Source: Candidatus Poribacteria bacterium
GTDB lineage: Bacteria > Poribacteria > WGA-4E > WGA-3G
Assembly (NCBI GenBank): GCA_012267415.1
Contig: JAAXGN010000115.1
Span: 1 to 64,000 of the forward strand
Direction of reading: 5' to 3'
Length of the DNA: 64,000 nt
In this document: in pieces, positions 8,139 to 22,766 of the stretch
How the letters are laid out: every line of letters starts with the position of its first letter
Numbering within the stretch: the first letter of the stretch is position 1
Program-made: the position numbers and the translations under genes
Notes under the pieces: model-generated
Seen by the model: only the letters and a program-made list of their open reading frames with translations
Told to the model about the DNA's origin: nothing
Databases searched by the model: none

Positions 8139-9074
8139 ATGAGCTGGGAACTGGTAAATCTAATGGAGAAACATGAAAAATTAAAACTCCTGTTGTTGGT
8201 CGCCGAAAATAAGGAAAATACAGAATTACGTATTTCATTTAATCAAATTATTAACACACTTCGTATTCCTATACCTTTTGGTGCTGATATGGAAAAAACT
8301 GTCTTTATTGCCAACGTTAGCGAAAATAATAAATTTGCCACTGAACTTCACAGTTTTTTAGAAAGACATGGTATAAAATGTTTCCAGTATACAATTGACC
8401 TCTTGCCGGGAGACAACATAAAACAGGAAACTAAAAAAAATATAGAAGAAAGTGATCACTGCATAATTTGTTTTTCAAAAGAATTCAACGCCCGCAAAAA
8501 ATCAGATATGCATAGAGAAATATATATAGCAATAGGGGATACTTATCAAAGAAAACCCAATAGTGGATACTTAATCCCAGTAAGAGTCAACGATTGCAAT
8601 ATAGAAGATTACGAGATTAATGCAACAACCTCAATGAAAGATCTCTGGTGTCCCGATTTTAGCAAAAACAGTGACAAAGCCCGTCAAGCCTTACTCAATA
8701 AGATACTCGGTCTAAGACCAGAATCTTCTGCTAAAATAAATGCTAACGCAATAACACCTCATCTGATCAGACTTCGTCAAGATGATAAATCATCCCTAAA
8801 GTTCCCTGGCTTCCTGTTAGGTGAATGTACAAACGCTCGTCAATGGAAAATACAAGTCTATGAAACAGCAGAGGATGTAAAAGAATGTAAGTATATTATT
8901 TATGTTGATCGTACAAACGCAAAAGTAGTTGCGGGTCAACAAAAGTATACAGTGAACAAATTTGATTCATTAGATTCCATAAAAACAAGTATATATAAAG
9001 TAACAGTGGATAAGGATTGTGCCAAGGATATATTGGACATGTTAGGTATTGAAGATTATGAATATTTAGAATAG
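8139..9074 (+). CDS. TIR-domain protein, probable defence effector
   Basis: An N-terminal helical segment (about residues 1-48) is followed by a TIR_2-like domain at about residues 50-165: VFIANVSENNKFATELHSFL, GIKCFQYTIDLLPGDNIKQE, SDHCIICFSKEF, then MHREIYIAI with the glutamate expected for NADase activity, and LIPVRVND. Bacterial TIR domains commonly cleave NAD+ or make signalling nucleotides during phage defence. The C-terminal half (about 190-311) is unrecognised and could sense or regulate. The gene sits directly before a type I restriction operon, supporting a defence role. The N-terminus is uncertain: just upstream, another frame reads WVALPRILPDISAILPTLAA up to a stop at the chosen ATG, so a frameshift may have removed an N-terminal domain. 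ATG 8163 is an alternative start. Confidence 0.78.
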   Translation: MSWELVNLMEKHEKLKLLLLVAENKENTELRISFNQIINTLRIPIPFGADMEKTVFIANVSENNKFATELHSFLERHGIKCFQYTIDLLPGDNIKQETKKNIEESDHCIICFSKEFNARKKSDMHREIYIAIGDTYQRKPNSGYLIPVRVNDCNIEDYEINATTSMKDLWCPDFSKNSDKARQALLNKILGLRPESSAKINANAITPHLIRLRQDDKSSLKFPGFLLGECTNARQWKIQVYETAEDVKECKYIIYVDRTNAKVVAGQQKYTVNKFDSLDSIKTSIYKVTVDKDCAKDILDMLGIEDYEYLE

Positions 9075-9207: not shown

Positions 9208-9253
9208 ATTGTCGTTATACTATTACTAACACCACTTGAAAGGAACAACATAT

Positions 9254-12200
9254 ATGGCATTAAAGAAATCGCAACTCTATGCATCCTTATGGCAAAGCTG
9301 CGACGAACTCCGCGGCGGTATGGATGCCTCCCAATACAAAGACTACATCCTCACACTCCTGTTCATGAAATACGTATCCGATAAAGCAGCTAAGAACCCT
9401 GATGAAGGTATTGATGTCCCTGAAGGTGCAAGTTTCGCTGATATGGTTGCTTTGCGAAACGATAAAGAGATAGGGGAGAAAATAAACAAAATCATTGAGA
9501 AACTCACAGAAGCAAACGAACCACTTAAAGGAGTGATTGATGAGGTAGATTTCAATGACGATAACAAACTTGGCAGTGACGATGAAAAACAAGAAACTTT
9601 GTCAAACCTGATTGGTATTTTTAATGACCTTGACTTCAGCGGAAACAGAGTTGAGGGAGATGATCTGCTCGGTGATGCTTACGAGTACCTCATGCGTCAT
9701 TTTGCTACACAGTCTGGAAAAAGTAAAGGTCAGTTCTACACCCCCGCCGAAGTCTCTCGCGTCATAGCAAAAGTCATCGGTATCAATGCCAACACCACTG
9801 GAAAACATACCATCTACGACCCAACCTGTGGTTCAGGTTCACTTTTACTGAGAGCAGCAGACGTGGCACCGAATGGCTTATCCATATATGGACAGGAAAA
9901 AGACAATGCCACTTATGCACTAGCATGGATGAATATGATACTCCACGACAACGAGACTGCAATATTGAAGCGTGGCAACACACTTGCATCACCCGATTTC
10001 ACAGATGACCACGGTAACCTTACGAGATTCGACTTTGCTGTGGCAAATCCACCCTTTTCCGACAAGGGTTGGACCAGCGGTGTCAATCTTAAAAACGACC
10101 CATACAGTCGTTTTGATGGATACGACATCCCACCCGCCAAAAATGGTGATTATGCGTTCCTGCTGCACTTCATCGCATCGCTCAAAAATGCAGGTAAAGG
10201 GGCAATCATCCTTCCACACGGTGTGCTGTACCGTGGTAATAGAGAGGAGAACATCCGCAGAAAAATCATCAATCGCGGACATATCAAAGGTATCATTGGG
10301 TTACCTACCAACCTATTTTACGGTACTGGCATCCCCGCATGCATTATCGTCATTGACAAGGAAGATGCTAAACATCGCACTGGTATCTTTATGATTGACG
10401 CAAGCAAAGGATTTATGAAAGATGGCAACAAAAACCGACTTCGCGCCCAAGACATACACAAAATCGTTTCCGTTTTCAACAATCAGACCGAAATAGATGG
10501 CTATTCTCGTATGGTGCCAACCACTGAAATTACCAATACTGCAAACAACTATAACCTCAATATCCGACGTTATATTGACAACAGCGATCCTGAAATCACG
10601 CACGACGTTGACGCACACCTTAATGGTGGTATCCCTGATACTGATATTGACGCATTTAATCCCTATTGGGGAGTTTTCCCTACACTTCGGAAAGAGTTGT
10701 TTATAAGAAACGGAAGACCCGGCTATAGTGAACTGAAAGTGGAAACTCAACTGGTGAAAAACACTATCCTCTCACATTGTGAGTTTACCGCTTACCAACA
10801 ACGTGTAACAACAATTATTGACAAGTGGTGCAACAAACACAAACCCCATCTACTTGGTATTGATACAAACACCTTTCCTGGAAATATTATTCGGACACTA
10901 TCAGAAGACTTGCTGATAGAATTCGGAGATCTATCACCACTTGACAAATATGATGTGTATCAAGAACTGATGAATTATTGGGACGATGTAATGCAGGACG
11001 ATGTTTATTTAATCAGGAAACATGGTTGGGAATCTGGACGGACTATTAGAGAAGCTTATGTCAAGGAGGATCCAGATTTGAAAATTAAAATAGGACAAAA
11101 AACTATAAAGTATGTTGGAGAACTGATTCCTGCATCAATAATAATTGCCACGTTTTTTGATGATGAAAAACAAAAATTAGATGAACTCGAAGCAGAAATT
11201 GAGATGTTAACACAACATAAGGAGGCATTTGAAGAAGAACATGGAGATGGTGATGGTGCGCTCGTAGGACTTGAAGGAAGTAGGGGAAAAATAACAAAAG
11301 GTAATGTGCAAGAGCGCGTAATGGAACATAGGGAAGCCATATTGAAAAAGTACCCTAAAGAGACTCCTCAGCATATTCGAGCGAATAGTATCAAAAAGAC
11401 AACTTTTGATAATAGCCATTGGATTCAGAAGAACATTAGTTATCAAGATGGTCTATTCAAAAAACCAGAGATACCGTTTGAATATGACGAGGAAGGTTTA
11501 TTTGAGGAATTAGACGTTCTCTACGAATATCTACAATTACTAAAAGCTGAAAAGGAAAAAGTGGATGCACATAAACAAACACTAAAAAACTTATATACTT
11601 CAGTAATTGCCAAGTACGCAAAACTCACCGAAGGTGAAATAAAAAATCTTGTGGTTAAACACAAATGGTTTGGAAGTATTCAGTCCTCCATAGAATGTGC
11701 AACACAACGAATTACTCAACGTTTCACTGAACACGTGAATGAATTATACAAACGTTATGCACAAACCCTATCAGAACTGGAACGCCAAGTTGAAATGTGC
11801 TCCAACAAAGTTAAAAAACATCTGAAAAAGTTAACTATAATTGGACATAATGAAGTTACTATGGAGTCACTCCTTACAGGCAAGACTCGTCTACCGGGAT
11901 TCAGCAAAGAATGGGAAACAAAGCGGTTAGGAGATATAGCCTCGTTTTTTAAGGGTTCAAGTCTTTTCAAGAAAACGGATATGTCGCTTGATGGAAAATT
12001 GCGATGCATCCATTATGGAGAATTGTTCACAATCTATGGAGAATGTATTACAGAAGTTCTGCATGGAACTGATAGAGACAAAGCATTTTTCTGTTCTGTA
12101 AATAACGATGTCCTCATGCCAGCATCAGATGTCACACCTAATGGCCTTGCAACTGCAAGTTGTATATCTAAATCTGATATTATCCTTGGTGGTGACATTT

Positions 12201-12490
12201 TAGTTATTAGAGTTCCAGCAGAAATTCTCAATGGAATATTTCTTGCTTATACAATCAAAATCAATCGAAATCAAGTTATGCAGCTTGTTACGGGAACAAC
12301 GGTATATCACCTATATGGCCGTGATATGGCGAACTTTGAATTTGATCTACCAAGTATCCAAGAACAGAACGCAATCGTCCGTGTCCTCTCCGATATGGAT
12401 GCCGAAATCACTGCATTGGAACAGCGTAAACACAAAACCCTCGCCATCAAACAAGGGATGATGCAGCAGTTACTCACAGGCCGTGTCTGA
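9254..12490 (+). CDS. hsdM: Type I restriction-modification HsdM-HsdS (half specificity) fusion
   Basis: One 1078-aa protein joins a methyltransferase and a specificity domain. Residues 1-150 are the HsdM helical N-domain (LWQSCDELRGGMDASQYKDY), and 155-430 the N6-adenine methylase with the AdoMet motif DPTCGSGSLLLRA near 188 and the catalytic NPPF near 263. Residues about 480-860 are a long charged, coiled-coil region typical of extended HsdM proteins. From about 877 there is one HsdS target-recognition domain beginning TRLPGFSKEWETKRLGDIAS and ending in a conserved helix (LSDMDAEITALEQRK, MMQQLLTGRV). Normal HsdS has two such units, so this is a half-S. ATG 9254 is preferred over the TTG at 9236 because AAAGGA precedes it. 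HsdR and a YgjP-type peptidase follow on the same strand. Confidence 0.9.
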   Translation: MALKKSQLYASLWQSCDELRGGMDASQYKDYILTLLFMKYVSDKAAKNPDEGIDVPEGASFADMVALRNDKEIGEKINKIIEKLTEANEPLKGVIDEVDFNDDNKLGSDDEKQETLSNLIGIFNDLDFSGNRVEGDDLLGDAYEYLMRHFATQSGKSKGQFYTPAEVSRVIAKVIGINANTTGKHTIYDPTCGSGSLLLRAADVAPNGLSIYGQEKDNATYALAWMNMILHDNETAILKRGNTLASPDFTDDHGNLTRFDFAVANPPFSDKGWTSGVNLKNDPYSRFDGYDIPPAKNGDYAFLLHFIASLKNAGKGAIILPHGVLYRGNREENIRRKIINRGHIKGIIGLPTNLFYGTGIPACIIVIDKEDAKHRTGIFMIDASKGFMKDGNKNRLRAQDIHKIVSVFNNQTEIDGYSRMVPTTEITNTANNYNLNIRRYIDNSDPEITHDVDAHLNGGIPDTDIDAFNPYWGVFPTLRKELFIRNGRPGYSELKVETQLVKNTILSHCEFTAYQQRVTTIIDKWCNKHKPHLLGIDTNTFPGNIIRTLSEDLLIEFGDLSPLDKYDVYQELMNYWDDVMQDDVYLIRKHGWESGRTIREAYVKEDPDLKIKIGQKTIKYVGELIPASIIIATFFDDEKQKLDELEAEIEMLTQHKEAFEEEHGDGDGALVGLEGSRGKITKGNVQERVMEHREAILKKYPKETPQHIRANSIKKTTFDNSHWIQKNISYQDGLFKKPEIPFEYDEEGLFEELDVLYEYLQLLKAEKEKVDAHKQTLKNLYTSVIAKYAKLTEGEIKNLVVKHKWFGSIQSSIECATQRITQRFTEHVNELYKRYAQTLSELERQVEMCSNKVKKHLKKLTIIGHNEVTMESLLTGKTRLPGFSKEWETKRLGDIASFFKGSSLFKKTDMSLDGKLRCIHYGELFTIYGECITEVLHGTDRDKAFFCSVNNDVLMPASDVTPNGLATASCISKSDIILGGDILVIRVPAEILNGIFLAYTIKINRNQVMQLVTGTTVYHLYGRDMANFEFDLPSIQEQNAIVRVLSDMDAEITALEQRKHKTLAIKQGMMQQLLTGRV

Positions 12491-12652
12491 TTATTGAAAT
12501 CAAATGATACACAATAAATAAAAAACGATCCTCAGTGGTCACAAATTGTAATTATAACAGAGACATTATAGGTTACCGAGACTCCACCCAATAGATAGAA
12601 GAGCTTTGTGATGCAAATACCAGTTCATACAAACTCTAAGGGAAGAGCAAAA

Positions 12653-15600
12653 ATGAATAATATCGGTGAAAAAGAAAGACGCATACAAGGACGACTCATC
12701 ACATTCTTTCAAGACGCTTTAGGGTACGAATACCTTGGCAACTGGCAATACCGTGCTAACAATCGTAACATCGAAAAGGATTTGCTGATCAAATGGCTGA
12801 GGACACAAGGGCATAATGAAAAAATAATCAAAAAAGTGTTGGATAAACTGAAAAGGGCAGCAGATGTTGGTGGAACAAAAACACTATACAACGCAAATCG
12901 TAAAATATATGGTTTATTACGATATGGAGCAAATGTGCGACCAGATACCGGACAGAAAAATACCACCGTCAAATTGATAGATTGGAAAAACCCTCATAAA
13001 AACCACTTCGGCATTGCGGAGGAGGTAACACTCCAATCTCAATACTCCAACAAACGTCCTGACCTTGTGTTATACATCAACGGTATAGCGATCAGTGTAA
13101 TAGAGTTGAAACGTTCCTCAGCGTCTGTCTCTAAAGGAATCCGTCAGAACATTGGAAACCAAAAAGTTGAGAACATTGGTCATTTCTTTAGCACCGTGCA
13201 ACTTATAATGGCAGGAAATGAATCGCAAGGTATACGTTACAGTGTCATAAATACAGAAGAGAAATACTGGCTGCAGTGGAAAGAAATAGATGCACATCCC
13301 GATGCAGGAAACAACCTATTGCACAGAGATGTCTGCCAACTTTGCAATAAAGAACGGATACTTGAACTCATTCATGACTTCATCGTTTTTGATGTGGAAA
13401 CAAAGAAAATATGCAGACATAATCAATACTTTAGTGTAAAGGCAGCGCAAGATAAAATCAAAAAACGTGAGGGTGGTATCATCTGGAATACACAAGGTAG
13501 TGGTAAAAGTCTCACTATGGTATGGTTAGCAAAATGGATACTTGAACACAACGCAGACGCGCGCGTGCTCATTATAACAGATCGCACGGAACTTGACGAT
13601 CAGATTGAAGGTGTTTTTCATGATGTCAAAGTGAAAATAAAACGGACGAAAAAAGGGTCGCATCTGTTACAAGTCCTCGGTAATTCCACAGTTAGACTCA
13701 TCTGTTCACTCGTTCATAAATTCCGATCTTCAAGTAATGACGACAAATCAGATATTGATGATTATGTGGAAGATATTGAGGCACAAAGGAAGGATAAATT
13801 TGATCCAAAAGGTGAAATTTATATTTTCGTGGACGAATGTCATCGCACACAGTCTGGCAAACTCCACAGAGCCATGACAACACTCCTTCCCGATGCTGTG
13901 CTTATCGCGTTTACAGGTACACCGTTATTTAAAACCCATAAACAACGGAGCATTGATATTTTCGGTCCGTTCATACACACTTATAAATATGACGAAGGCG
14001 TTCACGATAATATCGTTTTAGACCTGATTTATGAAGCGCGCAACATTGACATAGATATCACATCACAGGAGATGATTGACCATTTTTTTCAAGAGAGAAC
14101 GCAAGGATTATCCAACACAGCAAAGATGCAACTGAAACAGCGATGGGGAACTATAATGAATGTAGAAAGTTCAATAGACCGCTTGGAAAAGATAGTAGCG
14201 GATATTATGATAGATATGAACACGCGCCCGCGATTAATGAGTGGAAAAGGAAATGCAATGCTGGTCGCGAATAATATCTTTTCTGCCTGTCGATTTTATG
14301 ATCTGTTTCAGAATACGGGATTAAAAGGGAAATGTGCAGTCGTTTCTTCATATAAACCCGCAGCAGATAACGACAATAGACAGCAGGAATATAACACCTA
14401 CAGAAAAATGCTCGCTGCGTATTTCAATGAACCGGAAGACACAGCAATGCATAAGGTTGAAGCATTTGAAAATGCTGCCAAAAAGGATTTCGTTGAAAAG
14501 CCAGCCGAAATGAAACTTCTCATCGTTGTGGACAAATTACTTACAGGTTTTGATGCTCCATCTGCAACCTATCTTTATAATGATAAAAAGATGCAAGATC
14601 ACGGTCTCTTTCAAGCAATCTGTCGTGTCAATCGGCTTGATGGAGATGACAAGAAATTTGGATATATTGTTGATTACAAAGACCTATTTGGTTCTCGAAA
14701 AAAGGCAATGACAGAATACACAGGTGAAGCATTTGATAAATACGACATTAAAGATGTAAAAGGATTATTGAAGAATAGACTTGAAAAAGGAAAGGAACGA
14801 TTAGATAACGCCCGCGATCAGATTAAAGGATTGTGTGAACATGTTGATCCGCCCTATGATACCCCTGACTACATGCGCCATTTCTGTTGTGAGGAGATTG
14901 GCAACGATGAACAGATAAAGGCTAATGAACCGAGACGTTTAAAACTTTATAAACTTACAACGGCATTTATGCGTTCCTATGCCAACATTGCGAATGAAAT
15001 GGAAGATGCGAGTTATTCTGATACCGAAGTAGAAAATATAGAAAACGAAGTTTCGTACTACGAAGAAGTCTGCAAAATGATAAAATTGGCGAGCGGGGAC
15101 TATATTGACCTAAAAGTTTACGAACCCGATATGCGTCAACTGCTGGATACATATATCGGTGCTGCGGATACGGAAAAAATTACAACTTTTGACGATACAC
15201 CACTCGTTGAGTTACTTGTTGAAAACAGAGAAAAAGCAATCGATGCACTGCCCGAAAGCATTCGCAACAATGAAGAGGCAATTGCAGCAACTATTGCAAA
15301 CAATGTCCGAAGAGTAATCGTTGATAAGATAAATATAAATCCAAAATATTATAAGGAATTATCAATTCTGCTGGAGGAAGTGATTGACAAACGGAGAGAG
15401 GAGGTAATAGATTACAGAGATTTCCTATCTAAAGTACTTAAATTGGGGGAACAGGCAAATGATCCTGATACTTTTCGAGACTACCCATCAGATATTAACA
15501 CTCCACCTCTCAAAGCAATATATGACAACTTAGGTGATGCATCACCTGACATCAGGCGGGCAGGTGCAATCGCTCTGGACACCGCGATCCGAGGTGTCCT

Positions 15601-15742
15601 CACTGACAATTGGAAAGGTTACGTATTCAAAGAACGTCGTGTCAAAAGTGTAATTAAGAGAGTAATTCAGGAAGAATTGGACAATCTTGACCTTGAGATT
15701 GACGAAATTTTCGAACTTGTTAAGAGGCAAGATGAATACTAA
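12653..15742 (+). CDS. hsdR: Type I restriction endonuclease subunit R
   Basis: HsdR is the motor-nuclease subunit that translocates and cuts unmodified DNA. The PD-(D/E)xK nuclease is at about residues 134-153 (RPDLVLYINGIAISVIELKR). The SF2 motor follows, with Walker A TQGSGKS near 280, DECH in VDECHRTQSGKLH near 394, TGTP near 420 and the arginine-finger motif QAICRVNRLDG near 656. The C-terminal third is helical and charged and probably docks on the HsdM-S core. The ATG at 12653 fits the family N-terminus and has a GGAAGAG site; the track start at 12608 adds 15 unlikely residues. About 1029 aa, normal. A 160-nt gap separates it from the M-S gene, and its 3' end overlaps the next gene by 11 nt. 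Confidence 0.94.
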   Translation: MNNIGEKERRIQGRLITFFQDALGYEYLGNWQYRANNRNIEKDLLIKWLRTQGHNEKIIKKVLDKLKRAADVGGTKTLYNANRKIYGLLRYGANVRPDTGQKNTTVKLIDWKNPHKNHFGIAEEVTLQSQYSNKRPDLVLYINGIAISVIELKRSSASVSKGIRQNIGNQKVENIGHFFSTVQLIMAGNESQGIRYSVINTEEKYWLQWKEIDAHPDAGNNLLHRDVCQLCNKERILELIHDFIVFDVETKKICRHNQYFSVKAAQDKIKKREGGIIWNTQGSGKSLTMVWLAKWILEHNADARVLIITDRTELDDQIEGVFHDVKVKIKRTKKGSHLLQVLGNSTVRLICSLVHKFRSSSNDDKSDIDDYVEDIEAQRKDKFDPKGEIYIFVDECHRTQSGKLHRAMTTLLPDAVLIAFTGTPLFKTHKQRSIDIFGPFIHTYKYDEGVHDNIVLDLIYEARNIDIDITSQEMIDHFFQERTQGLSNTAKMQLKQRWGTIMNVESSIDRLEKIVADIMIDMNTRPRLMSGKGNAMLVANNIFSACRFYDLFQNTGLKGKCAVVSSYKPAADNDNRQQEYNTYRKMLAAYFNEPEDTAMHKVEAFENAAKKDFVEKPAEMKLLIVVDKLLTGFDAPSATYLYNDKKMQDHGLFQAICRVNRLDGDDKKFGYIVDYKDLFGSRKKAMTEYTGEAFDKYDIKDVKGLLKNRLEKGKERLDNARDQIKGLCEHVDPPYDTPDYMRHFCCEEIGNDEQIKANEPRRLKLYKLTTAFMRSYANIANEMEDASYSDTEVENIENEVSYYEEVCKMIKLASGDYIDLKVYEPDMRQLLDTYIGAADTEKITTFDDTPLVELLVENREKAIDALPESIRNNEEAIAATIANNVRRVIVDKININPKYYKELSILLEEVIDKRREEVIDYRDFLSKVLKLGEQANDPDTFRDYPSDINTPPLKAIYDNLGDASPDIRRAGAIALDTAIRGVLTDNWKGYVFKERRVKSVIKRVIQEELDNLDLEIDEIFELVKRQDEY

Positions 15743-16466
15743 ATCAAATGTTTACAACATTGAAGTACGTGATCTCTCCATAGAAGTAGTCCGAAAAGAC
15801 ATCAAGCATTTCTACATCGGTGTTCATCCACCAAACGGACAGGTACGCGTATCTGCACCGCTGCGACTTGACGATGATGCTGTGCGGATGGCTATTATTT
15901 CACGTTTAGGATGGATTAAACGGAGACAAGCATCATTTGCCAAACAGCAACGCCAATCACAACGTGAATATGTGTCTGGTGAAAGCCACTATTTTGCGGG
16001 AAAACGTTACAGACTAAAAGTCAATGAACAGGATTGCCCACCTAATGTTAAACTACTGAACAACACCAGAATTGGACTGACCGTGCGTCCGGGGACAGAT
16101 CGGGATAAACGTGAGGCGGTATTCTATGAGTGGTATCGCGAACATCTCCAATCACAACTGCCGCCACTTCTTGAAAAATGGGAACCGAAACTGGGGGTGT
16201 CTGTCAACGAGGTACGTATCAAGAGAATGAAAACACTCTGGGGTTCCTGTAATATTGAGGCAAAACGTATCTGGCTCAATCTTGAACTAGCAAAGAAACC
16301 ACAATCCTGTTTGATATATGTATTGGTTCACGAGATGACACATCTACTTGAACGGCATCACAATGATCATTTTCGAGAGTTGATGGACACTTTTTTACCG
16401 AAGTGGCGTTCCTACCAAGATGAACTGAACAGAGCACCGTTAGCACACGAAAACTGGCGTTATTGA
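15732..16466 (+). CDS. YgjP/SprT-like zinc metallopeptidase (DUF45)
   Basis: A predicted cytosolic zinc-dependent peptidase-like protein. The family core includes RIKRMKTLWGSCNIEAKRIWLN, then the zinc motif HEMTH in VLVHEMTHLLERHHNDHF, and WRSYQDELN near the end. Genes of this family are often the last member of type I restriction operons, though their role there is unclear. ATG 15732 is chosen because AAGAGG lies just upstream and it overlaps the hsdR stop by 11 nt, implying coupling; the track start at 15687 lies well inside hsdR. About 244 aa, normal length. All metal-binding residues appear present, so it should be active. Confidence 0.88.
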   Translation: MNTKSNVYNIEVRDLSIEVVRKDIKHFYIGVHPPNGQVRVSAPLRLDDDAVRMAIISRLGWIKRRQASFAKQQRQSQREYVSGESHYFAGKRYRLKVNEQDCPPNVKLLNNTRIGLTVRPGTDRDKREAVFYEWYREHLQSQLPPLLEKWEPKLGVSVNEVRIKRMKTLWGSCNIEAKRIWLNLELAKKPQSCLIYVLVHEMTHLLERHHNDHFRELMDTFLPKWRSYQDELNRAPLAHENWRY

Positions 16467-17821: not shown

Positions 17822-18040
17822 TCAATCTGCATCCCACGTTCCTTCCGGTAAATCGGTCTCACCTATCAAAACGAGTGCTTGTTTCTTTGCACGTTTTGAA
17901 CGCCACAGATGCTGTGCCATATAAGCCAACTATGCTTGCATCACATCTTGATATGGAAAAGGTGTGTCAAGGAAACGCAGCAGCCGTTTTTGTTTAGATT
18001 TTTCTTTCTGAACATCTATCGGTAAACGATAAGCGGCGTT
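17822..18040 (-). pseudogene. Decayed transposase-like fragment
   Basis: On the minus strand, directly beyond the stop of the DUF6785-type gene, one frame reads NAAYRLPIDVQKEKSKQKRL and LRFLDTPFPYQDVMQA, then an in-frame stop (17930-17932), then LWRSKRAKKQALVLIGETDL before a second stop. The RSKR..LVLI-ETDLPEG pattern recalls the first acidic strand of IS4-like DDE transposases. No inverted ends or target duplication were found. The plus-strand ORF 17713-17997 is the shadow of this remnant. It marks the right edge of the defence island. Confidence 0.45.
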
Positions 18041-19970
18041 AAATCCAGCTATAAACAGCGGAACGGAATATTAGACTCAGCAGAGGCCAAAAACAACCCA
18101 TCAGTGCCTCACCTAATACCAGCCCGATGAAAAAGGGAATTGCTTTACGATATGCGTTTATACCCCCATTTCGCAGTATAATCCACTTTGTCACCATCGC
18201 GATTAACAATGGAAACCAAATTACATCCGTAGTGCCAGGTGCTACACCGATAACATAGCCAGCCGGATGTAGTGGACACCAGACGAAGCGAGAACGTAAC
18301 ATCATGATACCCAAATTCGCAACAAAAGTACCGCCCAACACAGTAGTAGCAATCCAGTCCATCGGTTTGGGGTTTACCAACCAAGATGAAAGAAAATTAT
18401 ACGTATCCGCACCACCTGCATGAATCTGTTCTGAACCTGCTGCAACACCTTCCCGGTATATTGCATAAGGGTAGAGTATCAGACTTGACAATATGCCAAT
18501 AAGGCTTGCGATGATTAGAACTGTGAACATTGTTCTATTTCGGATATTCGTTCTCTCCGCAAGTTTGAATGCTTCCAATTGGTCCGGCATAGGATGTGTG
18601 CGGAATGATGCATAACTGGCTCCGCTAAGCCAATTCAACAGCGATAGCATTGTTAGATTTCCTGCCCGAAGTCTTCGCGTGCCGAGAAGCGAAATCATCA
18701 TGTATTGCGGTGTAAGATAACCGATAGCATGGATTGGCGGACCGAGTTCCGCACGCATCCGAGTTAAACCGACAACAATCAATAAGTATATACCGATAAA
18801 AACAAAAAATGCCCATAAAGACATACCGCCACGTATGCAGAGTATAGCAAGCAAAAATAGTGATACTCCCAGTGTAATCAATGTGCTGCGATATGAAATA
18901 CCTTCATTCTGCGTTCCTGAACGCGTCGGACGAATTGACTGAGAAAAAACGAAGGCAAAGTGTTTACGACCATGCCAACATGCAATAGCAAGTAACGCAA
19001 GTAACGCACCCGCTCCCTGTTCACCTAAAAACGGATAACCCGCAACCTTAGACATACCTGATGCACTGCCAAAAACCAACTGCACCTTCTTCATCAGATA
19101 GAAAAACGTACATGAAAACGCTAAATCCAACGGGAGGATAAATGAGAAACCTATAAGGTAAGGATGGAACCTCAGTGGTGTATTGCCTATCGCATTCCAA
19201 GGCTTTTGTGTAAAATAGATATTGAGATTATATTCTCTAACGGGAATAGTCGGCAAGACAGGAAAAAAATACTGTAATCCATTCAGTAGATTTATCCCCA
19301 TGGCTATGCCAAAACCTATCCAAAGTAGTCGACTCTTGAAAATGCGACGATTCGAGACGACCTCAAGCGGAATCTGGATAATTGGATAAGCGAGTTTTTC
19401 ATTTTCTATCCACTGTTTGCGAATGAGCGATGTCAAACAGAGGAATATCAGCATCAACAGGAAGATCACGGCAGACCAAGAAAGAATCGGAACTATCCAA
19501 AACTGTAAATACCCGCCTGTAAAAAAGTTCGTGTTTCCTTCATAGAAATCATTAACTGTTCTCGGATCCTTGACAACAAGCCAGTCCGGCAGATGGTGAA
19601 AAAGGAGTGCTTCCCAATCATTTTCCGCTGTAGCAAAGCGATAAGCATACGGTATAAGTCCCATGAGCCGAGGTATACAGTCATGTCCAGAAAAGGCACT
19701 CCCTACCGCAAGCATACTATAGACAACAACCAGATCACGTTTTGTCAGTGCAGCAAACGGAGCAAAACTTCTTATCCACAAATTCAGAACCGTTATAACA
19801 AAAATGCCAAACATGACATTTACTGACATCGCTACTGTCGTTAGATGCGCTGTGTGCCAGATCATCTCAATATAAGCAATCCAGTAACTGTTGGCAATGA
19901 TAAGAATAATACCAATAAATACAGCGCGTTTTGTTATAGACTGTGAAGTCTTCAGGTCTGTTTGATTCAT
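18039..19970 (-). CDS. Large polytopic membrane protein (DUF6785-like)
   Basis: A 643-aa protein with roughly a dozen or more hydrophobic segments spread along its length, for example AVFIGIILIIANSYWIAYIE, FWIVPILSWSAVIFLLMLIF, ALLALLAIACW and LLAILCIRGGMSLWAFFVFI. Conserved-looking loops include WIENEKLAYPIIQIPLEVV and LTRMRAELGPPIHAIGYLTP. The pattern matches the DUF6784/DUF6785 membrane proteins that are abundant in Poribacteria and Planctomycetes, distantly reminiscent of oligopeptide transporters; the substrate is unknown. The ATG has only a weak ribosome binding site. No operon partner is evident: a repeat element lies upstream and the decayed transposase downstream. Confidence 0.75.
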   Translation of the reverse strand: MNQTDLKTSQSITKRAVFIGIILIIANSYWIAYIEMIWHTAHLTTVAMSVNVMFGIFVITVLNLWIRSFAPFAALTKRDLVVVYSMLAVGSAFSGHDCIPRLMGLIPYAYRFATAENDWEALLFHHLPDWLVVKDPRTVNDFYEGNTNFFTGGYLQFWIVPILSWSAVIFLLMLIFLCLTSLIRKQWIENEKLAYPIIQIPLEVVSNRRIFKSRLLWIGFGIAMGINLLNGLQYFFPVLPTIPVREYNLNIYFTQKPWNAIGNTPLRFHPYLIGFSFILPLDLAFSCTFFYLMKKVQLVFGSASGMSKVAGYPFLGEQGAGALLALLAIACWHGRKHFAFVFSQSIRPTRSGTQNEGISYRSTLITLGVSLFLLAILCIRGGMSLWAFFVFIGIYLLIVVGLTRMRAELGPPIHAIGYLTPQYMMISLLGTRRLRAGNLTMLSLLNWLSGASYASFRTHPMPDQLEAFKLAERTNIRNRTMFTVLIIASLIGILSSLILYPYAIYREGVAAGSEQIHAGGADTYNFLSSWLVNPKPMDWIATTVLGGTFVANLGIMMLRSRFVWCPLHPAGYVIGVAPGTTDVIWFPLLIAMVTKWIILRNGGINAYRKAIPFFIGLVLGEALMGCFWPLLSLIFRSAVYSWI

Positions 19971-20037: not shown

Positions 20038-20204
20038 ATATATAGTGAACTTTAGAATTAATGCCCGTTAAAATATTGACTGACTTCATAACGGGCGAGG
20101 AGACCTCGCCCCTACGCTGGGTGTTGCGAGGGGACCTCGCCTCTACGCTAGGTGTTCTTGGTAAACGGCGAGATGTTTCATGATATATTCACTTTACTAT
20201 AAAT
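20038..20204. mobile_element. MITE-like element, family B copy 2
   Basis: Ends similar to the 5795 element (TATAGTGAACTTTAGAATTA on the left; ATATTCACTTTACTATAAA on the right) enclose two tandem palindromes with CTAC ends, GGGCGAGGAGACCTCGCCC and GCGAGGGGACCTCGC. The inner hairpins therefore differ from those of copy 1 while the shell is similar. Confidence 0.6.
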
Positions 20205-20379: not shown

Positions 20380-21480
20380 ATGAAACTTGCTTTTGAGAAA
20401 GATGAATTACTATATGCACTACAAATCGTTCAAGGAGTGGCAAGTGGACGGACTACCTTGCCGATACTTTCAAACCTGCTTATACGTGCTGAGGATGGGA
20501 ATATAGAATGTGCATCAACAGATTTAGAAGTTAGTATTAAGATAAGCGTATTGGGTACTATCATTGAAGAGGGTGCCATTACAGTCTCAGCAAAAAAGTT
20601 AGCAGACATCGTAAGAGAATTACCCGATAGCATGATTGAACTTTCAACAACAGCAAATTATAGACTTGACCTGATTTGTGGCGATGGTATATTTAAAATA
20701 TACGGACTTTCCGATGAAGATTTTCCTCAACTACCGTCTATTGATGAAAACGTTATTACTGTTGATGGTGACACGCTCAGAAATGTAATCTATAGAACAG
20801 AATTCGCCGCATCAACAGAAGAGGTGCGATATTTATTGAATGGCTTACACTTTAATTTCAATCAGGAAAAGACAGAGGTAGTTGCAACGGACGGGATTAG
20901 ACAGTTAGCATTGACATACTGCGATTTTTTAGAGAGGACTGAAGAAACCGATAGTTTCACGGTTCCTTTGAAGGCAATTAAGGAAATATCAAGAACATTC
21001 GCAAATTCACAGGAGATAAAGGTAGCACTCGGTAAGAATCAGCTCATACTTTCAGACAATAACGCGACACTTTCATCACGTTTGGTTGAAGGTGAATATC
21101 CAAAATATCATGAAATTATTCCCAGTTCCTTTGAAGGACGAGTGGTCGTTTCAAGAGAAGCTATCTTACAGGCAATACGTCGTGTTGCTTTACTTTCAGA
21201 CCCTAAGCAGTTTGCTGTTTGTTTAGAGATAGAACCGGATGGAATTCGTGTCTCGGCGAAAGCACCTGAAGTTGGGGAAGCGTATGAAATAGTTGCTGTG
21301 GAATCCGGATCCGGTTCTGTACGGATCGGTTCAGAAGCCAGAGCATTAATAGATACATTGGCACACATTGTCGCGGAATCTGTCGTTATAGAATTTTCTG
21401 GAGAGTTCTCACAGTTTACAATAAAACCCATAGGCGATGATCAACAACTTCACGTTATAATGCCTATACGCTTGGAATAA
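20380..21480 (+). CDS. dnaN: DNA polymerase III beta subunit (sliding clamp), first copy
   Basis: The sliding clamp encircles DNA and tethers polymerase III and many repair proteins. All three clamp domains are present in 366 aa: an N-terminal MKLAFEKDELLYALQIVQGV, LPILSNLLIRAEDGNIECAS and TDLEV; a middle domain with TEFAASTEEVRYLLNGLHF; and the C-terminal end HVIMPIRLE resembling the conserved PMRL terminus. The normally invariant ATDGHRLAL block reads VATDGIRQLAL, with one extra residue. A second clamp gene follows 23 nt downstream on the same strand. There is no dnaA, recF or gyrB around it, so this is not the usual origin context. A GGAG-like site (AGTAGGAG) precedes the ATG. Confidence 0.93.
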   Translation: MKLAFEKDELLYALQIVQGVASGRTTLPILSNLLIRAEDGNIECASTDLEVSIKISVLGTIIEEGAITVSAKKLADIVRELPDSMIELSTTANYRLDLICGDGIFKIYGLSDEDFPQLPSIDENVITVDGDTLRNVIYRTEFAASTEEVRYLLNGLHFNFNQEKTEVVATDGIRQLALTYCDFLERTEETDSFTVPLKAIKEISRTFANSQEIKVALGKNQLILSDNNATLSSRLVEGEYPKYHEIIPSSFEGRVVVSREAILQAIRRVALLSDPKQFAVCLEIEPDGIRVSAKAPEVGEAYEIVAVESGSGSVRIGSEARALIDTLAHIVAESVVIEFSGEFSQFTIKPIGDDQQLHVIMPIRLE

Positions 21481-21503
21481 TCATAAAACTAAAGGAGCAA
21501 TGC

Positions 21504-22607
21504 ATGGAACTTATATTTGAAAAAGATGATCTATTACATTCACTACAATTAGTACAAAGTGTTGCAGGAGGACGGAATACGCTTCCAATATTGGCAAATG
21601 TCCTCATTCGCGCACAAGATGGGGAAATAGAATGTTCAGCGACCGATTTAGAGGTCGGAATAAAGGTTAAAGTAGATGGCACGATCAATGAAGAAGGATC
21701 AATCACCGTAGCTGCAAAAAAGATGACTGACATCGTCAGGGAATTACCCTCGGACATGCAGGTAAAATTGGTAACAACTGCAAATGATCGTGTTGAACTC
21801 ACATGTGGAACAGGTGTCTATAAGATTATTGGACTTCCCGATGATGATTTTCCAGAGCTACCATCAGCTGAAGGAGAAGGTACTACAATAGATGGTGAAA
21901 CGCTATGTGCAGTTATCCATAAAACAGAATTCGCAGCATCCACCGAGGAATTTAGGTATCAATTAAACGGTCTGTATTTCAATCTGCTTGAAGATAAGAC
22001 AGAGGTAGTCGCAACGGATATGCATTATCTTGCACTCACGCACTGTACACTCATCAAAGCACCCGAAGAAGTTGATGGTTTTATTGTACCTTTGAAGGCA
22101 GTCAAAGAGATCTCGCGCACATTTGCCAATTCACCCCATGTAAAAATTATACCCCTCAAAAATCAGCTCCTCTTGTCAGACGAAAATGCAACCTTGACAA
22201 CTCGCTTAGTTGAGGGTGAATACCAATCCTATCAGACACTCATACGGGAAACTTCACCAGGTCGGGTTGTTGTCTCAAGGGAAGCAATATTGCGAGCAAC
22301 CCGTAGGGTAGCACTGCTTTCAAACCCAAAGAGTTTCGCAATTCGTTTAGAAATAGACCCTGAGAACATACAAATCTCAACTGAAACTCCCGAAGTTGGT
22401 GAAGCTCACGAAACTGTAAAGGTAGAATCTGGCATAGGCAATGTGAAAATTGGGTTGGATGCAAACAGACTCACAGAGATCTTTGCACATATTGAATCAG
22501 AATCTGTGATCCTTGAGTTTTCAGGTGAATTTGAGTTCTTTATCGTCAAACCAGAGAGTGAAGATGGACATACATGTTTCATCGCGCCAATGCGTTTGAA
22601 GTCATAG
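21504..22607 (+). CDS. dnaN: DNA polymerase III beta subunit (sliding clamp), second copy
   Basis: A paralogue of the preceding gene, clearly homologous over the full 367 aa (shared FEKD-LL--LQ-VQ, GR-TLPIL-N, TDLEV, DIVRELP, TEFAASTEE, KTEVVATD) but diverged at many positions. The ATDGHRLAL block reads VATDMHYLAL, so the conserved Gly and Arg are missing, and the C-terminus is FIAPMRLKS, close to consensus. It is preceded by AAAGGAG and lies 23 nt after the first copy, so both are probably co-transcribed. The two clamps might form hetero- or homodimers with different partner preferences, or one may serve repair. Which one is the replicative clamp cannot be decided here. Confidence 0.93.
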   Translation: MELIFEKDDLLHSLQLVQSVAGGRNTLPILANVLIRAQDGEIECSATDLEVGIKVKVDGTINEEGSITVAAKKMTDIVRELPSDMQVKLVTTANDRVELTCGTGVYKIIGLPDDDFPELPSAEGEGTTIDGETLCAVIHKTEFAASTEEFRYQLNGLYFNLLEDKTEVVATDMHYLALTHCTLIKAPEEVDGFIVPLKAVKEISRTFANSPHVKIIPLKNQLLLSDENATLTTRLVEGEYQSYQTLIRETSPGRVVVSREAILRATRRVALLSNPKSFAIRLEIDPENIQISTETPEVGEAHETVKVESGIGNVKIGLDANRLTEIFAHIESESVILEFSGEFEFFIVKPESEDGHTCFIAPMRLKS

Positions 22608-22618
22608 AATTGGCGTTC

Positions 22619-22766
22619 AGGTGCGCTTTCCTTGAATGAAGATTTATAAATTGGGTAATATGCGGGCGGGGAAACCCCGCCCCTACGAAGTCTTACTCCT
22701 ACGATGAGTCTTATTCGTAGAATTACCTGATTATTTATTTAATCTTCATATAAGGAAAGCGCACCT
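22619..22766. mobile_element. MITE-like element, family C copy 1
   Basis: Long inverted ends (AGGTGCGCTTTCCTT with its exact complement AAGGAAAGCGCACCT, continuing as ATGAAGATTTATAAA and TATTTAATCTTCAT) enclose a GGGCGGGGAAACCCCGCCC hairpin with a CTAC end. The right end shares about 29 of 30 nt with 57979-58008. The same inner hairpin occurs alone at 35322-35344. Confidence 0.75.

Follow-up and report, generated by a model that had tools for sequence, protein, structure and literature searches.

The sliding clamp of bacteria is a homodimer, and polymerases and repair proteins vie for its two identical clefts, which hardly vary; its gene, dnaN, is normally present in one copy with a near-invariant pocket. 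In the 64-kb window (the whole stretch of Poribacteria DNA analysed here) two dnaN genes lie side by side, and the question this locus raises is what a bacterium does with two different clamps. An earlier note on this DNA had suggested that they are specialised clamps, perhaps with separate partner sets or forming heterodimers. A lineage with no single canonical clamp and two differently built clefts would be a natural experiment on the need for equal clefts; the pair could be informative on how partner traffic at the clamp is sorted, and it has a bearing on the possible escape of bacteria from clamp-targeting antibiotics. Poribacteria of this group are sponge-associated.

Two sliding clamp genes in tandem

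We find that the first copy (T1) and the second (T2) are co-directional, full-length and 23 nt apart (Table 1), a claim of the earlier note that the open reading frames, Pfam domains and TIGR00663 scores bear out. Each product contains the three DNA_pol3_beta domains (PF00712, PF02767 and PF02768) above Pfam cut-offs and exceeds the TIGR00663 cut-off of 137.65 bits (T1, 275; T2, 247), and the AlphaFold2 models (pLDDT 91.5 for T1 and 90.8 for T2) match solved DnaN folds with TM scores of 0.87-0.94. Membership of the β sliding clamp DnaN family is not in doubt, the pocket being a typical and not a defining feature of it. The two copies share 61% identity. T1 carries the loop ATDGIRQLAL, with one residue inserted at E. 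coli positions 174-176, and has the C-terminus IMPIRLE; T2 carries ATDMHYLAL and ends in IAPMRLKS. Both loop deviations are as first described. A GGAG upstream of the T2 start (region 21494-21497) may be read as a ribosome-binding site. The promoter candidate that the genes were said to share did not hold up, as consensus matches occur at chance frequency (9 found against 7.2 ± 2.7 expected). Clamps 96% identical to T1 are present in the Candidatus Poribacteria metagenome-assembled genomes VXOP01 (SB0662_bin_35) and JAJEJA01 (p16x63bins.62).

We also note that similar G+C-rich, palindrome-like intergenic sequences, recognised by eye, flank the pair (examples are GGGCGAGGAGACCTCGCCCCTACG and GGGCGGGGAAACCCCGCCCCTACG). 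Elsewhere in the window a gene for a TIR-domain protein lies upstream of a type I restriction-modification set, which is followed by a gene for a YgjP-like metallopeptidase.

Table 1. Locations of the features discussed; coordinates without a locus or contig prefix are those of the window
Feature	Location	Strand	Basis
dnaN copy T1, β sliding clamp, 366 aa	20380..21480	+	Pfam, TIGR00663, AlphaFold2
T1-T2 spacer, 23 nt	21481..21503	+	from sequence
dnaN copy T2, β sliding clamp, 367 aa	21504..22607	+	Pfam, TIGR00663, AlphaFold2
DUF6785/DUF6784 membrane protein, 643 aa, divergent dnaN neighbour	18039..19970	-	Pfam, synteny
Palindrome-like flanking sequences	20080-20160; 22660-22695		by eye
TIR-domain protein	8139-9074	+	
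HsdM + specificity domains, one ORF	9236-12490	+	
HsdR	12608-15742	+	
YgjP-like metallopeptidase	15687-16466	+	
Second clamp-loader delta gene, G000 (L276)	G000:C38:106600-108900		
Sigma::clamp ORF	L105:4054-5784	+	
Sigma::clamp ORF	L082:5251-7002	-	
Sigma::clamp ORF	L083:4321-6078	+	
Sigma::clamp ORF	L086:3845-5578	+	
Sigma::FtsZ::DnaE ORF	L254:9-4208	+	Pfam
Sigma::FtsZ::DnaE ORF	L251:3-3869	+	Pfam
Sigma::FtsZ::DnaE ORF	L252:1603-5643	-	Pfam
DnaN::FtsZ fusion, 693 aa, G019	L089:3926-6007	-	
Sigma fusion, FtsZ/tubulin (cut by locus end)	L086:8906-10001	+	
Sigma fusion, C-type lectin	L072:9364-11445	-	
Sigma fusion, peptidase-S9/propeller	L083:7579-10001	+	
Sigma fusion, HTH-like part	L094:6721-7944	+	
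Divergent clamp, G019:C1	L090:4963-6075	-	
DnaE with QVNLF motif, G019:C1	L256:1005-4463	-	
Shorter DnaA-like protein	G044:C1:1336512-1337564		
Shorter DnaA-like protein	G038:C35:168258-169331		

The only clamps in the assembly

The assembly that contains the window (G000; 5.46 Mb in 170 contigs, 97.6% complete, 5.29% estimated contamination) was searched for a canonical third dnaN, as the earlier note had proposed, and none was found in it even at E≤1. The pair is located away from dnaA, as had been claimed, dnaA being on another contig. Among the sister species G000, G012 and G015, T1 has a dN/dS of 0.10-0.13 and T2 one of 0.06-0.12, and in other within-genus pairs it is 0.05-0.12; both copies are under purifying selection. 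A canonical dnaN elsewhere together with decay of both copies had been named as evidence against specialisation and, because both copies are under purifying selection and the assembly holds no other dnaN, this is not what we find.

We think it very unlikely that the pair has no functional meaning and is an ordinary recent or neutral duplication, a decaying locus or an artefact of assembly. G000 is a metagenome-assembled genome with some estimated contamination; over 2255 nt its contig C38 is identical to contig C183 of G006, and the second clamp-loader delta gene that lies in this DNA is probably contamination of the bin. However, the two dnaN copies are well diverged from each other, their locus is common across the genus, and it is collinear in G012 and G015 at 93-96% nucleotide identity. 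Decay is ruled out by a dN/dS of about 0.1 in each copy, and an artefact by the presence of the pair in other genomes, including G009, which is a single 5.34-Mb contig.

A tandem pair or triplet is present in 14 of the 18 members of the window's genus (g1), G000 included, with triplets in G001 and G003, and at all 14 loci the genes are on the same strand with gaps of 3-381 nt. G011 carries one clamp, of the T1 type, at the same relocated locus (see below), which means that the T1/T2 pair is not an absolute requirement. A standard clamp was not found in G004, G007 and G008 (g1; assemblies 81-95% complete) or in G045 (same order): G004 and G045 have no clamp, G007 only a divergent one and G008 only a sigma fusion, absences that may be assembly gaps. 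Divergent clamps are also seen in G007 and G011 (L080, L081). We found no tandem dnaN in bacteria described in the open-access literature.

Relocation of dnaN and its later duplication

The outgroup families keep the order dnaA-dnaN-recF-gyrB. In the window's family (f1) recF directly follows dnaA, with no dnaN between them, at all 19 dnaA loci examined; in G000 (C60, L079) the order is dnaA, recF, a 221-aa ORF and gyrB. The dnaN of f1 adjoins the gene for a DUF6785/DUF6784 membrane protein and has, in most genomes, the same metabolic genes on its opposite side. This relocated locus holds a single dnaN in genera g2 (where we call the copy g2B), g3 and g4, and the tandem pair in g1. A further clamp of g2, g2A, is found at a different locus and is itself tandem in six of the sampled g2 genomes. 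Since the dnaA loci of f1 lack dnaN and the relocated locus is common across the family, we place the move of dnaN out of the origin operon in the ancestor of the family, before f1 radiated; the duplication came later, in g1. A test of T1 monophyly gave a p-AU of 0.33, so there may have been more than one duplication, or some gene conversion.

Most order-level relatives (families f2-f4) encode a second, shorter DnaA-like protein (open frame of about 385-440 aa) that matches positions 63/99-437 of the DnaA model, the N-terminal part thus being absent. In G019 (g3) a 143.9-kb contig, C1, separate from the 5.0-Mb contig, has a divergent clamp and a DnaE of its own, and is possibly a plasmid or phage-like element.

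The clamp-binding-motif pocket

We compared 18 pocket residues, taken from a review (PMC11139829), by phylogeny-aware site rates expressed relative to the mean; these are a safer measure than entropy tests, which make the pocket effect look larger than it is, since they treat related sequences as independent. In single-copy order-level relatives (n=11) the pocket evolves at 0.37 of the mean (P<0.00002); the g2B pocket is slow as well (0.50, P=0.0007). The rate is average for T1 (0.92) and somewhat fast for T2 (1.29, P=0.044), with loop 174-176 of T2 at 1.89 (P=0.028). The g2A pocket as a whole, at 1.23, does not depart significantly from the mean (P=0.19), but its loop evolves fast (2.74, P=0.005). 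Entropy, in which kinship is ignored, shows a sharper contrast for T2 (1.24 versus 0.69, P=0.0003). Only two of 366 sites, 174 and 175, have no residue common to the T1s and the T2s, and both belong to the pocket. Here the labels follow gene order, except that the first copy of G017 was put with T2 and the lone G011 clamp with T1; a tree made without the pocket columns supports the placement of the G017 copy and leaves the G011 clamp unplaced.

In the window, 8 of the 16 outgroup-invariant pocket residues are changed in T2 (p=0.006) and 5 of the 16 in T1 (p=0.20), which has the inserted residue in addition. The T1 cleft retains most of the canonical residues (L155, T172, G174, L177, P242, M362, P363 and R365); that of T2 shows the changes G174M, R176Y, P242Q and M362A and keeps R365 and L177. 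Neither copy has the near-invariant pocket typical of DnaN. The residue comparison that the earlier note had called for thus points to a pocket altered in both copies relative to single-copy relatives, and differently in T1 and T2. Its description of the genes as strongly diverged is apt for this pocket, but not for the dimer interface and the overall fold, both of which are conserved.

By phylogeny-aware rates the excess in the T2 pocket is modest and could reflect relaxed constraint; the rates would fit a new specificity of T2 and a relaxed or silenced T2 cleft alike. It is conceivable, if rather unlikely, that the T2 cleft has lost its function and that the protein is kept only for ring closure with T1 or for dose. 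M362, P242 and G174 have been lost while the interface stays conserved, the pocket evolves at about the average rate of the protein or slightly faster, and E. coli heterodimers with a single cleft are viable without Pol IV (PMC3022782); the loop signatures that recur in most species ([HN]Y before LA) nevertheless suggest some remaining constraint, and R365 and L177 have been retained.

It has also to be considered that altered-pocket duplicates might keep replication going when an inhibitor blocks one clamp, the inhibitors being phage proteins or natural products in the sponge that resemble griselimycin, with a parallel in griR/mypR of the producers. We regard this as rather unlikely, though a live alternative. 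Although the pocket is the site of griselimycin and mycoplanecin, whose producers carry a second dnaN (PMC10817943), although species differ in the pocket residues of their T2 and g2A copies, and although relatives carry fusions of a sigma factor to a clamp, one of them adjoining ABC transporter genes, the loop signatures are fairly stable inside the T1 and T2 subclades, below expectation for a fast arms race, and no inhibitor is known in this system. G000 has no NRPS condensation domain, which makes self-resistance to an NRPS product of its own unlikely; self-resistance of the GriR/MypR type is not supported, as G000 has neither such a domain nor another dnaN.

Ring surfaces and the replicative polymerase

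The dimer interface evolves slowly in both copies (site rates; T1, P=0.007; T2, P=0.014) and, in terms of sequence conservation, its residues are near-identical between them. R24 is kept in 28 of 31 sequences and lysines 73-74 in all 31. T1/T2 heterodimers would be compatible with these data because the interface is conserved in both copies, a conservation that equally allows homodimers. G000 encodes a single DnaE (Pol III α), with the canonical QLNLFG at the usual place, which speaks against a matching second polymerase, nor did we find any partner whose motif is altered to match. The proposal of specialised clamps thus finds support in the divergence of the pocket, in which T1 and T2 are unlike, but not on the partner side, where the one Pol III α keeps its canonical QLNLF. 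In relatives there are extra DnaE matches, and Pfam identified the three long ones to which it was applied as sigma::FtsZ::DnaE fusions; the co-occurrence of such matches with tandem g2A clamps may merely reflect phylogeny.

Fusion proteins in relatives

Nearly all g2 and some g1 genomes have a single ORF, of about 575-605 aa, in which a whole clamp is joined to an ECF-type sigma factor (regions 2 and 4); none was found in G000. About 15 further loci exist besides the four in Table 1, identification being by Pfam for three ORFs and otherwise by open-frame lengths and blastp offset. Because interface residues 272, 273 and 106 and the central-channel basic residues 24 and 73 are often lost from the clamp part, these proteins, unlike T1 and T2, may be unable to form rings. 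At L086 the fusion gene is surrounded by genes for ABC transporters, MacB/FtsX-type and others, together with a sigma::FtsZ ORF. A phage source of the fusion was rejected, no phage record covering 80% of it, and we found no report of a sigma-clamp fusion in the open-access literature.

Other ORFs, of about 1,290-1,400 aa, combine sigma regions with a full FtsZ and the PHP, NTPase and finger domains of Pol III α, and similar long open frames are present in other genomes. The 5.0-Mb contig of G019 encodes a DnaN::FtsZ fusion. Further sigma fusions are given in Table 1, with partners that range from a C-type lectin to an HTH-like part; fusion of sigma factors to unrelated proteins seems to be common in f1. 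We speculate that whatever is joined to the sigma factor (clamp, FtsZ or DnaE) could be a decoy target that senses inhibitors.

A working model

On present evidence we see an even balance for and against the view that a relocated dnaN was duplicated to yield two selected, ring-competent clamps with unequal clefts that are co-expressed and form T1/T2 heterodimers. The synteny shows that dnaN was already outside the origin operon when it was duplicated in tandem; judged by predicted fold, interface and purifying selection, both copies are selected, ring-competent β clamps, and it is the peptide-docking cleft that has changed. T1 and T2 would be co-expressed, with heterodimers forming alongside or instead of homodimers, and the cell would thereby hold clamps with two unequal clefts. 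T1 could serve Pol III α through QLNLF, and T2 might either dock other clients or lower competition as a cleft-poor partner. Going by their conserved and altered residues, we read T1 and T2 as ring-forming clamps whose clefts are unequal and which can probably form heterodimers. We are more tentative about a further step, possible though doubtful, in which the chromosome would be replicated with an asymmetric T1/T2 ring that has one replicative cleft and one that is either remodelled for particular clients or silenced. That T1, too, departs from the canonical loop counts against the model.

Comparison with known systems

T1 and T2 are like other bacterial β clamps in their three domains, conserved dimer interface and predicted fold, but unlike the usual DnaN they are encoded by two co-directional genes, outside the dnaA operon and the typical dnaA-dnaN-recF-gyrB placement, and have diverged clamp-binding-motif pockets. 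In producers of griselimycin and mycoplanecin a self-resistance dnaN (GriR/MypR) sits in an NRPS cluster (PMC10817943). The likeness lies in an extra dnaN in the genome and a pocket that is the drug site; T1 and T2 differ in being tandem, in that both depart from the canonical pocket loop, and in the lack of an NRPS condensation domain in G000. In Crenarchaeota such as Metallosphaera sedula, PCNA1, PCNA2 and PCNA3 have been shown to form a hetero-oligomer (PMC4894655). There, as here, one organism has paralogous clamp subunits, and the asymmetric ring that we propose for T1 and T2 would be a further likeness, but PCNA1/2/3 is a trimer with another ring architecture and from an unrelated lineage. 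Lastly, the E. coli β/β-C heterodimer, with one working cleft, is a laboratory mutant that is viable only without Pol IV (PMC3022782), and this viability makes an unequal pair mechanically plausible. A ring with two unequal clefts is our working model for T1 and T2 as well, with the difference that here the unequal clefts are natural and inherited.
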